Below, one piece after another: positions 11,386 to 47,644 of a stretch of DNA of 58,230 nucleotides. The number at the start of each line of letters is the position of its first letter. Position 1 is the stretch's first letter. Under the pieces are notes generated by a model. That model saw only the letters and a program-made list of their open reading frames with translations. It searched no databases and had not been told where the DNA came from. Source of the stretch: Gammaproteobacteria bacterium (GTDB lineage Bacteria; Pseudomonadota; Gammaproteobacteria; Pseudomonadales; Pseudohongiellaceae); contig JAUHWU010000004.1 of NCBI GenBank assembly GCA_030427065.1, positions 1 through 58,230 on the forward strand. The letters are read 5' to 3'. Made by a program: the position numbers and the translations under genes.

Positions 11386-12255
11386 ATGGGCAAAATCTGT
11401 TGCCGTGTTTCACTATTGTTTGTATTTTCCATTGCCAGCTTTTCCGCGCTGGCAGAGAAAAACTTTTCTGGCGTTTGGGTAGGTAATTACAGCGAGGATT
11501 TTCCTGACCGCTTACCCGGTCCCGAGCTTGGGGACTATGCCGGGCTCCCCCTTAATGATGCTGACAGATTACGGGCGCAGAGCTGGAGCGCTTCACTGAT
11601 CGCGCTGCCTGAATACCAGTGTCGTGTCCATCCATCAGATTATGCCAGCAGCTTTGCCAATATCCGCATTTGGGAAGAACGCGATCCTATCACTGAACAG
11701 TTAATCGCTATTCGTATCCAGCATTTTGCCTGGCAAACCCGGCGCACCATCTGGATGGATGGTCGCGAGCACCCGCCTGAGTTTGCACAACATACTGCGA
11801 TGGGTTTTTCTACCGGGGAATGGGTCGGGCATCAGTTAAAAATCAAAACCACCCATCTTAAGGAAGGCTGGTTACGCCGAAATGGTGTTGCCCGCAGTGA
11901 CCAGGCCACGGTGACCGAATATTTTATTCGCCATGACGATTTGCTGACCTGGACAGTGATTATTGATGACCCCGTTTATCTGGATGAACCTTTCATCAGG
12001 AATCGTGATTATCTTTATTCCATTGACAGTCAGGTGGGCAATTATCCTTGTGATCCGGTGATCGAAATGGTCAGAGAGCCTGGTTATATTCCCCATCATC
12101 TGCCAGGCACCAATACCGATTTGCTGATTTATTCCGAGCGCCATGATATTCCTGTAGAAGCCGCCATGGGGGGCGCCGAAACCATGTATCCGGAATATAT
12201 CGAGCGTTTGCGGGAATTGCCTAAACCCAGTGAATTACAGGCAGGGCAGGAGTAA
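11386..12255 (+). CDS. secreted protein of unknown function with a WLRRNGV motif (289 aa)
   Basis: A signal peptide is visible (MGKICCRVSLLFVFSIASF, cleavage near ALAEK). The mature part starts NFSGVWVGNY, a lipocalin-like opening. Near residue 160 it has GWLRRNGVARSDQATVTEYF, which is matched in the gene at 13249 (GYLRRNGVPYGTQAKLTEYY), so the two proteins are related. Cysteines near residues 79 (YQCRVH) and 224 (NYPCDP) could form a disulfide. The gene is 2 nt from the metallo-beta-lactamase gene, so the two are almost certainly co-transcribed. I know no enzymatic function for the family; it is often seen near DUF6152 genes. Confidence 0.7.
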   Translation: MGKICCRVSLLFVFSIASFSALAEKNFSGVWVGNYSEDFPDRLPGPELGDYAGLPLNDADRLRAQSWSASLIALPEYQCRVHPSDYASSFANIRIWEERDPITEQLIAIRIQHFAWQTRRTIWMDGREHPPEFAQHTAMGFSTGEWVGHQLKIKTTHLKEGWLRRNGVARSDQATVTEYFIRHDDLLTWTVIIDDPVYLDEPFIRNRDYLYSIDSQVGNYPCDPVIEMVREPGYIPHHLPGTNTDLLIYSERHDIPVEAAMGGAETMYPEYIERLRELPKPSELQAGQE

Positions 12256-12257
12256 TT

Positions 12258-13238
12258 ATGAAGAACATTACACTAAATAAACTGTTTGCCATGGTTCCGG
12301 CGCTGGCAGTTTCCATTGTCTTTTCGCAAACGATTATTGTCCCACAAGCACAGGCACAAACCGATTTTGACGCGGTAGAAATCCAGACGCTTAAAGTGCG
12401 TGACAATATTTATATGCTGGTGGGTGCCGGCGGCAATATCACTGTTCAGACTGGAGATGACGGTATCCTGATCATCGACACCCAGTATGCCGAGTTGTCG
12501 GAAAAAAATCTGGCGGCAATCAGGGCGCTGTCTGACAAACCACTGCGTTACATTATCAATACCCATCACCATGGTGATCATGTGGGAGGCAATGCCGAAT
12601 TAAAGGCGGCGGGATTTACTCCCAGTGGCGGTAATGTTGGCGCAGCCTTGTCCAATGCTGGAGAAGGGGCAACTATCTTAGCCCATGAAAATGTACTGTT
12701 GAATATGGCTGGTGACGACAACATGTCTACAGAAATGTGGCCGACCATGACCTACTTTGCCGACAAAAAAGATCTCTACTTCAATGGCGAAGGGGTGCGG
12801 ATAATTCATCAGCCCAATGCCCATACCAACGGCGACAGTATTGTCTTTTTCCGGAAATCCGATGTGATTACCACGGGTGATGCCTATATCACCAGCTTCT
12901 ATCCTTTTATTGATATGTCTTCTGGCGGCACTTTGCAGGGATTTATTGATGCTGCCAATGCCATTATTGACCTTATCATTCCGGAATATGGCCAGGACGG
13001 CGGTACCCTCGTCATTCCCGGTCATGGCAGACTCAGTGATATTGGGGATGTCATTAACTGGCGAGAAATGCTGACAATCATCAGGGATCGCATCATTGAT
13101 ATGAAACAGCGTGGCATGAGCCTGGAAGAAGTCCTCGCTGCCAGACCCACCAGAGACTATGACCCACGTTGGGCGGGGCAGGGAATTTTTTCCACTGAAA
13201 ATTTTGTCACTGCAGCCTACATGACACTGGTAGATTAA
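12258..13238 (+). CDS. secreted metallo-beta-lactamase-fold hydrolase (326 aa)
   Basis: This is an MBL-fold metal-dependent hydrolase with an N-terminal signal peptide (cleavage near AQAQT, residue 34). The zinc site is complete: NTHHHGDHVGGN (HxHxDH, about residue 98), AHTNGDS (about 190), TTGDAY (Asp about 212) and PGHGR (last His about 254). It resembles periplasmic cyclase/beta-lactamase-like MBL proteins rather than true class B enzymes, and the substrate is unknown. A paralogue with the same motif order is at 45823-46806; this copy has about 20 extra residues after GGN. It sits between two related secreted proteins, which suggests a shared extracytoplasmic pathway. Confidence 0.85.
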   Translation: MKNITLNKLFAMVPALAVSIVFSQTIIVPQAQAQTDFDAVEIQTLKVRDNIYMLVGAGGNITVQTGDDGILIIDTQYAELSEKNLAAIRALSDKPLRYIINTHHHGDHVGGNAELKAAGFTPSGGNVGAALSNAGEGATILAHENVLLNMAGDDNMSTEMWPTMTYFADKKDLYFNGEGVRIIHQPNAHTNGDSIVFFRKSDVITTGDAYITSFYPFIDMSSGGTLQGFIDAANAIIDLIIPEYGQDGGTLVIPGHGRLSDIGDVINWREMLTIIRDRIIDMKQRGMSLEEVLAARPTRDYDPRWAGQGIFSTENFVTAAYMTLVD

Positions 13239-13248
13239 GGAGCGACAC

Positions 13249-13998
13249 ATGAAAACAAGCATGATCAAACTAATATTGTCGACTCTTCTCCTGTTTTCGG
13301 CCATCGATTTATCAGCACAACCGGGTGGAGAACAACAATCGGCACGGGAAATGGCCGCCATTGACATCACCGGTAACTGGGTTTCACTGGTGACTGAAGA
13401 CTGGCGTTTCAGAATGGTGGTAGCTAATGCTGGTGACTACGAGGGCATAGGCTTAACGCCCAAAGGCCGGGAAATTGCCAATGCCTGGGACCCTGACGCT
13501 GATCTGGCCGCAGGCAACGCCTGCAAGGCCTATGGAGCCGGTGGTCTGATGCGAATTCCTACCCGCTTGAATATCAGTTGGGTAAGCGACAATGTCCTGC
13601 AGATTGACACCGATGCCGGCATGCAGACGCGTTTACTCAAGTTTGGTCCGGCGCAGGATAATGCCGGTGCCGGGACTCTGCAGGGGGTCACCAGGGCCAG
13701 CTGGCAGATAGAAAGGGAAGGCGGTTTTGGTGGCGCAGTGACAGGTGGCAGCATCAATGCAGTAACCACTGATATGGCGCCGGGATACCTGCGTCGTAAT
13801 GGGGTGCCTTACGGCACGCAGGCTAAGCTGACAGAGTATTATGAGTTGTTGATTGGTGGTGATGGGACGCATTACCTGACAGTGATCTCTATACTGGAGG
13901 ATCCTGAACATCTGACTCAGTTGTATACTACCAGTGCCAATTTCAAAAGAGAGCTTGATGGTTCCAAATGGAATCCTTCGGAATGCGAGGTCCAATAG
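13249..13998 (+). CDS. secreted protein related to the 11386 product (249 aa)
   Basis: The N-terminus is a signal peptide (MKTSMIKLILSTLLLFSAI, cleavage near LSAQ). A beta-rich domain follows, beginning ITGNWVSLVTEDWRFRM. The motif GYLRRNGVPYGTQAKLTEYY (about residue 181) is shared with the gene at 11386, as is a closing EDPEHLTQLY stretch comparable to DDPVYLDEPF. The gene is 10 nt downstream of the metallo-beta-lactamase gene and is the last of the three-gene unit. It may be a lipocalin-like binding protein, but no function is established. Confidence 0.7.
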   Translation: MKTSMIKLILSTLLLFSAIDLSAQPGGEQQSAREMAAIDITGNWVSLVTEDWRFRMVVANAGDYEGIGLTPKGREIANAWDPDADLAAGNACKAYGAGGLMRIPTRLNISWVSDNVLQIDTDAGMQTRLLKFGPAQDNAGAGTLQGVTRASWQIEREGGFGGAVTGGSINAVTTDMAPGYLRRNGVPYGTQAKLTEYYELLIGGDGTHYLTVISILEDPEHLTQLYTTSANFKRELDGSKWNPSECEVQ

Positions 13999-14012
13999 TA
14001 GCTATTACGCTC

Positions 14013-14127
14013 GGCTACTCATCGTTAAAAATGTGCTCAGTCGGTCATGTGCTCAATGTACACTTTCTCCCTGCGCGCATTTTTGCCTCGATTAGCCAGC
14101 GCTCATGACGCTACCAAATTTTGAGCG
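14013..14127. repeat. long imperfect inverted-repeat element
   Basis: Two nested stems lie here. GGCTA-ATCG at 14013-14024 pairs with CGATTAGCC at 14089-14097, and AAAAATGTGC at 14027-14036 pairs with GCGCATTTTT at 14075-14084. The inner loop carries two copies of ATGTGCTCA. A second, shorter inverted repeat follows (CGCTCA at 14100-14105 and TGAGCG at 14122-14127). The base pattern is unlike the flanking genes and looks like a mobile intergenic hairpin element. It lies between convergent genes. Confidence 0.55.
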
Positions 14128-14211
14128 TTTATGATGAACTGCATTCACCTTATTCAGAAAAAAAGCGGAAAATAGAAGGAAATAGCTGGAATAGCCGCAA
14201 AGAAACATAAT

Positions 14212-14240
14212 AAAAAAGGCCGCATAAGCGGCCTTTTTTT
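14212..14240. terminator. bidirectional Rho-independent terminator
   Basis: A GC-rich stem (GGCCGC/GCGGCC) with an ATAA loop is flanked by six A on the left and seven T on the right. It can therefore end transcription from both sides, serving the 11386-13998 unit on the plus strand and the DUF6152 gene on the minus strand. Confidence 0.9.
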
Positions 14241-14268
14241 CTTTCAGTGGCCAGTAGCCACCAAATGA

Positions 14269-14664
14269 TTAATCGAAGGTTTGATCTTCCGAGAAGCCCC
14301 AGCCGAAACCGTCTGCCGGACGCAGAATACTTTCCATGCGCATACGGTGATCGCTTCGGTCTCTCGAGGGTTGTCCGGTGATGATGACTTCGTCACCCGG
14401 TTTGAATGAGGTTCTTGTCAGTCCCTGTCGCATCAGCAGTGTAGCACCGCCCCACTCAACGCCCCAGCGTTGCTCATTGCCATCTTCATCCGGTGCCATA
14501 ACCATCACAGAGGCGTGGGGATTACGGAAATTCATCTGCACCAGTTTGCCCTTAATCTCAATCATGGTGTCCATGTCATAAGTGGCTTGAAACGAGTGAT
14601 GTGCAAACGCGGAAGGAACCAGGATTAAACTGGCAAACACACTAAAAATTTTGATTAATTTCAT
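14269..14664 (-). CDS. DUF6152-family secreted protein (131 aa)
   Basis: I chose ATG 14664 because GGGGGAAG lies just upstream; an earlier in-frame start would put 27 polar residues before the signal peptide. The signal peptide MKLIKIFSVFASLILVPSA should be cut after AFA, leaving a mature chain that begins HHSFQATYD. A second histidine is in NPHASVMV, and a small beta-barrel-like domain follows (KGKLVQMNFRNPH, FKPGDEVIITGQPSRD). This is the DUF6152 pattern. A histidine at the very N-terminus is the arrangement used for copper binding in CopC-like proteins and LPMOs, but for this family the idea is my inference. Confidence 0.8.
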   Translation of the reverse strand: MKLIKIFSVFASLILVPSAFAHHSFQATYDMDTMIEIKGKLVQMNFRNPHASVMVMAPDEDGNEQRWGVEWGGATLLMRQGLTRTSFKPGDEVIITGQPSRDRSDHRMRMESILRPADGFGWGFSEDQTFD

Positions 14665-45822: not shown

Positions 45823-46806
45823 ATGAGCAAACCAATAAATCCAATAATTCAAAAAACCATTGCGGCGACTTCTATACATAAAATGATGACATTTAAAACC
45901 CGTAACAATATTTTTAAGGCTTTTTCCCGAACATTATCTGCCGTGGCTTTATTGGCACTGACAGTGGAGCCGACAATCGCGCAACAGGATTTCAGTCAGG
46001 TTGAGATAATTCCGCATCAGCTGACCGACAATATTTATTATCTGGAAGGCCAGGGCGGCAATATCGGGGTTTCCATTGGTGAAGATGGTGTGTTCATGAT
46101 TGATGACCAGTTCGCCCCCTTGTCAGAAAAAATTCTGGATACTCTGGAGGAGTTGTCTGACCAACCGTTGCGCTTTGTTATCAATACCCATCAGCACCCG
46201 GACCATATCGGCGGTAATCAGAATATGGGCAGGGAAGGGGCAGTCATTGTTGCTCATGAGAATGTGCGGACCGCCCTTGCCGCCGGCTTCACCAGTGGGG
46301 ACCTGAACCGGGCTTTGACAGCGGATCAGCGCATCGGTCTGCCCATTGTCACCTTTACTGATTCTGTGGATTTCCATTTAAACGGTGACGATATTCATGT
46401 CTTTTATAACGGATCCGGTCACACCAATGGCGATTCCTTTGTCTTTTTCAGACAAAGCAACATCATCCATACCGGTGACGTTTTCAGGACCGTTGCCTAC
46501 CCAAGAGTGGATGTCGGTGCCGGCGGTACATTTCATGGGATCGTAGCGTCCTATGAAAAATTGCTGGAAATATCCGATGCCAATACGCGGTTTCTTCCCG
46601 GTCATGGCGTAGTCAGTACACAGACTGAGCTCCTGTCACAGTTGCAGATGTTCAAAACCATTGCCAGGCGCGTTCAAAATGCCATTGACGATGGCATGAG
46701 TCTGGAGCAGGTACTGGCTGCAGGACTTACTGCTGAATATGATGCGCGCTGGGGAGATCCCGAAGGTATGCTGACGGCAATATTCAATGAACTGATCATC
46801 AGGTAG
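45823..46806 (+). CDS. secreted metallo-beta-lactamase-fold hydrolase, second paralogue (327 aa)
   Basis: The zinc motifs match those of the gene at 12258: NTHQHPDHIGGN (HxHxDH), GHTNGDSFVFF, HTGDVF and LPGHGV. The spacing is shorter after GGN. A strong GGGAGGGG ribosome site supports ATG 45823. This gives about 35 residues before the hydrophobic signal segment (AVALLALTVEPTIAQ), a long n-region for a signal peptide. It is a single gene, not flanked by WLRRNGV proteins. The substrate is unknown. Confidence 0.83.
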   Translation: MSKPINPIIQKTIAATSIHKMMTFKTRNNIFKAFSRTLSAVALLALTVEPTIAQQDFSQVEIIPHQLTDNIYYLEGQGGNIGVSIGEDGVFMIDDQFAPLSEKILDTLEELSDQPLRFVINTHQHPDHIGGNQNMGREGAVIVAHENVRTALAAGFTSGDLNRALTADQRIGLPIVTFTDSVDFHLNGDDIHVFYNGSGHTNGDSFVFFRQSNIIHTGDVFRTVAYPRVDVGAGGTFHGIVASYEKLLEISDANTRFLPGHGVVSTQTELLSQLQMFKTIARRVQNAIDDGMSLEQVLAAGLTAEYDARWGDPEGMLTAIFNELIIR

Positions 46807-46879: not shown

Positions 46880-47644
46880 ATGAAATTCCGGCCCTGTATA
46901 GATCTGCATGACGGAAAAGTGGTGCAGATCGTTGGGGGCTCCCTGCAGGATGGTCACAATGAGTTGCTGGAAACCAATTTTGTTTCCAGCAAGTCCCCCT
47001 CGGAATATGCTGACCTTTATGAATCCGATGGTCTTACTGGCGGTCATGTCATTTCACTTGGCTCCGGTAACAGGTCCGCCGCGCTGGAAGCGCTTTCGGC
47101 ATTTCCGGGCGGAATGCATTATGGCGGTGGCGTTAATCCGGACAATGCCGCTGAATATCTGGATGCCGGCGCCAGTCATGTTATCGTCACTTCCTGGATA
47201 TTTGATGAAAACAGACTTTCCATTCAAAAACTTGCTGAATTAAGTAATAAGGTGGGCAGAGACCGGCTTGTTCTCGATCTTAGTTGTCGTGGCCGGGATA
47301 ATGATTTTTATGTTGTGACCAATCGCTGGCAGACCTTCACTGAAGAAAAAGTTAACGCCGACCTGCTTGAGCGGCTCGCTGACTACTGCAGCGAATATCT
47401 GGTTCATGGCGTTGATGTGGAAGGCAAGAGTCAGGGGATCCAGGAAGACCTAATTGCTGTGCTGGGTGAGCACTCCCCGTTACCCGTGACCTACGCCGGT
47501 GGTGTCGCCAGGCTTTCAGATCTTGATCTGGTAAAAGCGCTCGGGAATAACAGGGTAGATCTCACCATCGGTAGTGCGCTGGATATCTTTGGCGGAAACA
47601 TTCCGTACGCAAGCGTTTTGGAGTGGATCCGCAACAACGAATAA
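46880..47644 (+). CDS. hisA: eukaryotic-type HisA (ProFAR isomerase, 254 aa)
   Basis: This TIM-barrel isomerase of histidine synthesis belongs to the form known from yeast HIS6, not to the usual bacterial HisA. It starts MKFRPCIDLHDGKVVQIVGG and has TNFVSSKSPSEYADLY, VIVTSWIF, LDLSCRGR, NRWQTFTEEKVNAD, HGVDVEG, YAGGVA and TIGSALDIFGGN. All of these correspond to the eukaryotic protein as I know it. Catalytic aspartates lie in CIDLHDG and in HGVDVEG. It stands outside a his operon. A heptad tract starts 2 nt after the stop. Confidence 0.88.
   Translation: MKFRPCIDLHDGKVVQIVGGSLQDGHNELLETNFVSSKSPSEYADLYESDGLTGGHVISLGSGNRSAALEALSAFPGGMHYGGGVNPDNAAEYLDAGASHVIVTSWIFDENRLSIQKLAELSNKVGRDRLVLDLSCRGRDNDFYVVTNRWQTFTEEKVNADLLERLADYCSEYLVHGVDVEGKSQGIQEDLIAVLGEHSPLPVTYAGGVARLSDLDLVKALGNNRVDLTIGSALDIFGGNIPYASVLEWIRNNE

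Follow-up and report, generated by a model that had tools for sequence, protein, structure and literature searches.

A conserved neighbourhood of predicted exported proteins links DUF6152, a family of predicted calycin-like barrels and a metallo-beta-lactamase-fold protein

Introduction

In a gammaproteobacterium of the family Pseudohongiellaceae (assembly GCA_030427065.1), the housekeeping genes proB and rpsT are separated by four genes for predicted exported proteins. They lie on contig JAUHWU010000004.1, a 58-kb piece (58,230 nucleotides, all of which is called the window below) of a 3.42-Mb draft genome that is 99% complete. Two of the proteins, P1 and P3, belong to one family, here termed L, and flank a metallo-beta-lactamase-fold protein (MBL); the fourth, D, is a DUF6152 protein. 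Have these genes merely come to lie side by side, or do their products act together, and if so, on what? Our work gives a clear answer to the first part of this question: The linkage of the genes, their fusions, their amplification and the invariance of three histidine residues in D are firm observations, and D, L and MBL very probably work together. They are part of a system that is larger than the block itself and that is apparently undescribed. For the second part, we tentatively suggest that the block encodes a secreted capture-and-processing unit, either periplasmic or at the cell surface, in which the metal, the ligand and the chemistry are our inference. A first-pass annotation of this DNA had proposed an uncharacterised periplasmic pathway, and this reading is supported as far as function can be derived from sequence.

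Results

The block is an insertion between proB and rpsT

The features of the block are as follows (positions in the window):

11386-12255, + strand: P1 (P0001), 289 amino acids, family L, predicted exported calycin-like beta-barrel with a helical insert and C-terminal helices
11872-11889, + strand: codons of the LRRNGV motif of P1
12258-13238, + strand: MBL (P0002), 326 amino acids, predicted exported metallo-beta-lactamase-fold protein
13249-13998, + strand: P3 (P0003), 249 amino acids, second predicted exported family-L protein
13789-13806, + strand: codons of the LRRNGV motif of P3
14212-14239, no strand assigned: terminator-like hairpin of 12 pairs with T-runs, located where the P3 and DUF6152 genes converge
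14269-14664, - strand: D (P0004), DUF6152, 131 amino acids from the ATG at 14664, predicted OB-fold, predicted mature start HHSF
14596-14601, - strand: His-His codons of D, the first two residues of the predicted mature protein
14515-14517, - strand: codon of the third invariant histidine of D, in the NPH motif, mature residue 29

The gene calls agree with the four genes that had been placed between proB and rpsT, and the N-termini of all four proteins resemble signal peptides when read by eye. The intergenic gaps of 2 nt (P1/MBL) and 10 nt (MBL/P3) are exactly those described before. The idea of an inserted block was borne out as well: Among 24 genomes of the family, the quartet occupies this site in six, rpsT directly adjoins proB in 16, and two could not be assigned. 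Since the direct junction prevails in the family, the block is an insertion. In the same genus, P1-MBL-P3 with a convergent DUF6152 gene was found in all five genomes (L136-L140). The D gene had also been described as facing the others across a terminator. The convergent orientation and a 12-pair hairpin are indeed there; however, the scan for terminator-like hairpins yields one site as compared to a mean of 4.0 in shuffled sequences, and since shuffling gives more sites, the scan alone is no evidence for a terminator. ARAGORN detected no tRNA gene in the window. The nearest named relatives are uncultured metagenome Gammaproteobacteria, one of them titled Pseudomonadales.

The neighbourhood is conserved across phyla and includes gene fusions

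To describe the neighbourhood, we used the best 80 of 143 named loci, which are 45-96% identical to P1. Most of their titles name Gammaproteobacteria or Acidobacteriota; besides these, there are one Rhodospirillales, a few entries labelled proteobacterium and a metagenome bin under the name of Bordetella parapertussis. Genes were called with a simple script that takes the longest ORF and misreads some high-GC loci; the counts for the named loci come from six-frame profile matches. An MBL gene is next after P1 on the same strand in 72 of the 80 loci, and a further L gene follows P1-MBL in 49 of the 64 loci with room for it. DUF6152 is present within about 4 kb in 32 of the 80 loci, in 15 of them downstream on the same strand. 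In ten loci, P1 and MBL are fused in one open frame.

In relatives, the gene calls likewise show the order P1-MBL-P3 at 17 of 20 loci. The exceptions are L152 with P1 alone, L142, for which the P1 call was missed (P1 is visible through six-frame matches on the same contig, L163), and L155 with a single frame for L and MBL. This frame lies in the first 1.3 kb or so of L155, at a contig edge of a same-genus genome (G003), is recognised by the L profile as well as by that of MBL, and may be a fusion outside the Acidobacteriota. At other sites, there are paralogous sets in the genera g2 and g8. In five relative loci, DUF6152 takes part in the same-strand run, being located inside it (L148), upstream (L149, L151, L154) or downstream (L150). 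The P1-MBL-P3 set of genus g2 and of a close relative (L145, L146, L147; L215, L217, L221, L222) continues with a second MBL gene, a gene for a protein of about 175 amino acids (SnoaL-like where scanned) and an MBL gene of about 500 codons.

It had been stated beforehand that the grouping would be accidental if no neighbourhood were conserved elsewhere. The position of the block between housekeeping genes, and its absence from this site in 16 of 24 family genomes, might suggest such a chance assembly of common exported proteins. Yet, the gene order and the fusions, P1-MBL as well as DUF6152-L (see below), are kept across phyla, and relatives carry paralogous quartets elsewhere. The conserved neighbourhoods and fusions rule out an accidental origin, to which we assign next to no probability: The grouping of the quartet is not accidental.

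D and L are coupled and highly amplified

The genome to which the window belongs has 53 matches to DUF6152 and 67 to L. The 51 loci fetched from it for holding D, L or MBL matches contain 51 of the 53 D and 62 of the 67 L; thus, about five L proteins were missed. Among the proteins placed in this way, 19 are D-L fusions with DUF6152 first and L second. Of the remaining, unfused genes, 36 of 43 L have a D within two genes, and 27 of 32 D have an L at this distance. By chance, only 2.65 of the L genes would be expected near a D, and the maximum in 2000 random placements, which assume 3200 genes, was nine. The amplification is a property of the family, since its 24 genomes carry 1-75 copies of D and 7-96 copies of L.

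This coupling extends to the phylum: L was detected in 12 and D in 42 of 398 genomes, and all 12 L-positive genomes are also D-positive (hypergeometric probability 4e-13). The two genes are adjacent in 11 of these 12 genomes, as judged from coordinates read by eye; the exception is G347. Copy numbers in the phylum are lower bounds because at most 12 D and six L candidates were scored per genome. D is also present in Acidobacteriota. In a set of 13 low-copy genomes (genera g3-g7, one D locus taken from each, even where there are two D), L is located just upstream of D on the same strand in all 13 loci. The D-L coupling is not absolute, as discussed below.

Family L is predicted to form calycin-like barrels

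P1 and P3 had been recognised as relatives by their shared GWLRRNGV/GYLRRNGV and TEY motifs, and this relationship is real: They are 23% identical (E=1e-10), and profiles seeded with either protein converge on the same 62 proteins in the genome. As a signature of the family, however, LRRNGV did not hold up, since each of the R-R-N columns falls below half of the 62 members; the motif marks a sub-branch only. The best-conserved positions of L are an N-terminal G-x-W (G in 55 and W in all 62 members), a cysteine pair (61 and 60 of 62) and Glu/Asp positions.

No Pfam family, those of the lipocalins included, matches P1 or P3 at E<=1, no NCBIfam model matches L, and a search of the PDB sequences with two L profiles gave nothing at E<=1. 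The structure of P1 was modelled from 84 sequences (pLDDT 88, pTM 0.85). The nearest solved folds are UnaG, cellular retinol-binding protein (CRBP), fatty acid-binding protein (FABP) and NanoLuc, with a best Foldseek E of 6.5e-4 and Z values up to 8.0 over 113 residues (rmsd 3.1). G-x-W, a motif typical of calycins, is placed at the first strand of the modelled barrel. Both P1, by its model, and P3, by family membership, are thus predicted to be calycin-like barrels of the lipocalin/FABP type, in agreement with the earlier suggestion of two related binding proteins. P1 shares with FABP, CRBP, UnaG and the lipocalins the predicted barrel topology and G-x-W at the first strand, but differs from these calycins in the lack of a Pfam match (E<=1), in the helical insert and the C-terminal helices, and in belonging to a bacterial family of predicted exported proteins with a conserved cysteine pair.

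D is a predicted OB-fold protein with three invariant histidines

The assignment of D to DUF6152 (PF19649) was confirmed with 87.9 bits, far above the cut-off of 27. In 120 D sequences (51 from the genome itself, 40 from the named loci and 29 from genomes of the phylum), the His-His pair and the third histidine are present without exception, as they are in 13 of 13 further sequences. These proteins are diverse, with 130 of 133 being distinct over 70 residues, and the spacing between His-His and the third histidine is 26-28 residues in 116 of the 120. In 115 of 119 D proteins, the position just in front of His-His conforms exactly to the -3/-1 rule for signal peptidase. Among the 51 copies of the genome, predicted mature positions +1 and +2 and the NPH histidine are the only invariant histidine columns. 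No methionine column reaches 50% except that of the precursor start, and there is none among the invariant or nearly invariant mature positions.

The model of D (pLDDT 89, pTM 0.81) has five main strands, the third of which is followed by a helix, and its nearest solved structures are the OB-folds of single-stranded DNA-binding proteins and of PriB (Z 9.2 to PriB). A PDB sequence search with the D profile returned a chance-level match only (E 0.41). D is thus predicted to be an exported OB-fold protein that starts with His-His after cleavage. The two N-terminal histidines and the third one make a strong signature of a metal site, as had been guessed when D was named a possible metal-binding protein, and D probably binds a transition metal, the nature of which we infer below, via its N-terminus. 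The literature searched contains no mention of DUF6152, DUF6644, PF19649 or PF20349.

MBL mostly keeps its metal ligands unless fused

MBL matches PF00753 with 56.5 bits (cut-off 22.7), and all seven ligand positions are occupied (H103, H105, D107, H108, H189, D208, H256). Its closest known counterparts are PDB entry 8d2z and the chlorothalonil dehalogenase 6uxu, with which it shares the fold family and the metal ligands; unlike these proteins, MBL, which is only weakly similar to them, is partnered with L and stays below the cut-offs of all of the best 25 of the 61 NCBIfam models matched. Specific assignments that were rejected include class B beta-lactamase (47.3 bits, NCBIfam cut-off 100), TIGR04559 (84.1 bits, cut-off 280) and the PQQ-linked MBL class (NCBIfam scores below the cut-offs).

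The seven ligands are complete in 61 of 80 MBL sequences, including that of the window. The figures for the two arrangements differ: All ligands are present in 60 of 70 unfused forms (one of the ten incomplete ones reflects a gap at a contig end), whereas they are incomplete in nine of the ten P1-MBL fusions. This suggests that the partnership of P1 and MBL outlives hydrolysis, and hydrolysis is not necessarily the core function. The first-pass annotation had pictured a hydrolase with accessory proteins; this fits the complete ligand set of the MBL encoded here but not most of the fused forms.

A second exported-looking MBL (window 45823-46806, + strand) is 41% identical to that of the block and has no D or L within two genes. 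Moreover, several loci of the genome (L081, L083, L086, L089, L101 and others) share a recurring block that encodes a large protein with DUF1592/DUF1588/DUF1585 domains, a DUF1552 (HXXSHH) protein and an ankyrin-repeat protein, with the domains taken from L101. It is often close to an MBL gene, and among the fetched loci, blast groups its members into clusters of 15, 13 and 13. The accessible text of PMC5615132 offers no function for it.

Putative membrane proteins and catabolic genes are neighbours of D

Stand-alone D proteins of the HHGW type, which keep the three histidines and have no L within 10 kb, are followed on the same strand by a gene for a small hydrophobic protein of the DUF6644 type in 19 of 19 loci. 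We regard it as a membrane protein from inspection by eye; of six members scanned, three are above the Pfam cut-off, two are just below, and one has only a weak match to DUF2214. The same type was found at six of the 80 named loci as well as next to D-L on two plasmids of sphingomonads. In two stretches of the genome (L279 and L280, contigs C260 and C86), DUF6644-type genes form tandem pairs, and the sequence fetched holds neither D nor L.

In 11 of the 13 low-copy loci, D-L is accompanied by one conserved gene family of the HupE/UreJ_2 type, as identified from one scanned member; the gene is separate from D. A conserved protein of 150-200 amino acids with weak similarity to cytochrome c' and an unassigned protein of about 190 amino acids are also encoded beside D-L and this gene (L266-L278).

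In the genome itself, we found no single dominant neighbour of D-L: The commonest Pfam family accounts for five of 135 neighbours of at least 150 amino acids, and cytochromes, PQQ enzymes, FAD oxidoreductases, gluconolactonase-like proteins and TonB genes are represented three to five times each (among the best 25 of 183 families). Copper families are absent from these best 25. Plasmids of Sphingobium sp. TomTYG65, Novosphingobium humi and Croceibacterium atlanticum also carry copies. That of TomTYG65, a strain among the isolates from soil treated with alpha-tomatine (PMC10653915, as far as its accessible text goes), has the arrangement L-D-L-D, with a DUF6644-type pair, monooxygenases and TonB receptors next to it.

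Relation to known metalloprotein families

Periplasmic proteins with an N-terminal histidine that are encoded beside a small membrane protein are well known from the CopC-CopD copper pairs. The stand-alone D next to a DUF6644-type protein resembles them in this arrangement.

According to the portions of PMC12537917 available to us, N-terminal-His domains bind nickel (DUF4198) or copper (Ang-1, Ang-2), HupE/UreJ-2 permeases are the fusion partners of the Ang types, and the enzyme activity seen was weak. With DUF4198, DUF6702, Ang-1 and Ang-2, which were found by signal-strapping, D shares predicted export, a conserved histidine predicted to be the first mature residue, and further possible ligands including a second, internal conserved histidine; from its sequence, D is thus a candidate metal-binding protein of this kind. 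As with the Ang types, there is a link to HupE/UreJ_2-type genes, but unlike in these anglerases, the gene is separate from D in the low-copy loci. The families of that study, as far as their folds are described in these portions, are beta-sandwich or Ig-like proteins. D is a predicted OB-fold that starts with His-His, forms pairs or fusions with L barrels, and is amplified; the absence of other folds, such as the beta-sandwich of LPMO and CopC, from its list of matches carries no weight. The main text of PMC12537917 makes no mention of DUF6152. D is also reminiscent of the copper/silver chaperones CusF and SilF, which are small exported OB-fold proteins, as is predicted for D; in contrast to their site of His, Met and Trp, as given in the text of PMC10656224 at hand, D lacks conserved methionine, and its candidate site is the N-terminus.

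Discussion

How might these proteins act together? The barrels of P1 and P3 would hold a small, probably hydrophobic organic ligand, and the two N-terminal histidines of mature D together with the NPH histidine would bind one metal ion, most likely copper. The metal-charged D and its barrel partner could then act on the bound compound, either by oxidation or by removal of a metal. MBL would be the partner of P1, as a di-metal hydrolase where the ligands are kept, as is the case here, and as a structural partner where they are lost; as a hydrolase it may cleave an ester, a lactone or a similar bond. In other lineages, the small membrane proteins of the DUF6644 and HupE/UreJ_2 types may serve D. 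Since there are dozens of diverged D-L pairs per genome, many different ligands seem more plausible than one housekeeping need for a metal. The large and diversified copy number, the varied catabolic neighbours and the L-D-L-D unit on the TomTYG65 plasmid favour the processing of organic compounds, whereas the HupE/UreJ_2 and DUF6644 partners favour metal handling. We lean towards organic substrates rather than metal supply, with a confidence that falls somewhat short of even.

Several observations weigh against the proposed unit. L is not tied to D, since genera g3-g7 carry 7-31 L but only one or two D, and D occurs without detected L in 30 of the 42 D-positive genomes of the phylum; the twentieth locus fetched along with the 19 stand-alone ones (L263) holds a strong-scoring D, but no L and no DUF6644-type gene within 10.5 kb. 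The neighbours of D-L in the genome are varied, its DUF6644 and HupE/UreJ_2 matches sit on contigs without D, and only five of the 15 MBL genes in its fetched loci are within two genes of D or L. The loss of MBL ligands, most of all in the fusions, also has to be considered. Concerning the predictions, the fold match of P1 is modest, as models that lack a clear match also attain Z values in the range up to 8.0; in the model of D, the initial ten residues are less sure than the rest (mean pLDDT 70); and the cleavage rule also accepts a position five residues later in 85 of 119 D.

The most serious competitor, although we consider it rather unlikely, is metal acquisition: Like a siderocalin, L would bind the complex of a metal and its chelator, MBL would open the chelator, and D would take over the metal at its N-terminal histidine and pass it to the DUF6644 or HupE/UreJ_2 permeases. 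The presence of a HupE/UreJ_2-type gene at 11 of the 13 low-copy loci and of a DUF6644-type gene after 19 of 19 stand-alone D speaks for this idea, as do the TonB receptors in some neighbourhoods. Precedent for it comes from the published N-terminal-His domains, as presented in the accessible portions of PMC12537917, in their binding of nickel or copper, the joining of the Ang types to HupE/UreJ-2 and the weak enzyme activity. However, copy numbers that reach 75 for D and 96 for L in a genome are far beyond what metal supply would be expected to need, and neither permease family is found beside D in the multi-copy genome. If hydrolysis were vestigial, as the nine fusions with incomplete ligands might indicate, MBL and D could be scaffolds of a non-catalytic complex for sensing or binding, in which L binds signals or toxic compounds. 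We regard this as improbable, since the seven ligands are retained in most MBL proteins, that of the window included, and the three histidines in every D examined. Even less probable is that D binds DNA or sugars as an OB protein at the cell surface, with His-His being a feature of processing or folding rather than a metal site. Single-stranded DNA-binding proteins and PriB are indeed the top fold matches of D, but OB-folds bind many kinds of ligands, D is predicted to be exported, and its sole invariant histidine columns are those of the candidate metal site.

Within the capture-and-processing proposal, it is tempting to speculate that D and L form a class of copper mono- or peroxygenases that is new, very large and exported, with a copper site formed by the N-terminal His-His on an OB-fold, a coupled or fused calycin barrel that selects hydrophobic substrates, and MBL finishing the product. 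Both the class and this division of labour are doubtful. If true, however, 50-75 copies per genome would have diversified in the manner of cytochromes P450 in other bacteria, as a means of living on diverse dissolved organic compounds. If D does bind a metal N-terminally, an OB-fold would carry a site resembling a His-brace, a combination that we did not meet in the literature searched, and a function would be at hand for a family present in 42 of 398 genomes of the phylum and in Acidobacteriota. Likewise, L has remained without a Pfam or NCBIfam match in spite of up to 96 copies per genome in one bacterial family. Thanks to the fusions and to the plasmid copies that named sphingomonads carry, bench experiments can address the question directly.

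Finally, the window encodes at 46880-47641 (+ strand) a HisA of the eukaryotic type in this bacterial genome (TIGR02129, 347.5 bits, cut-off 229.3).

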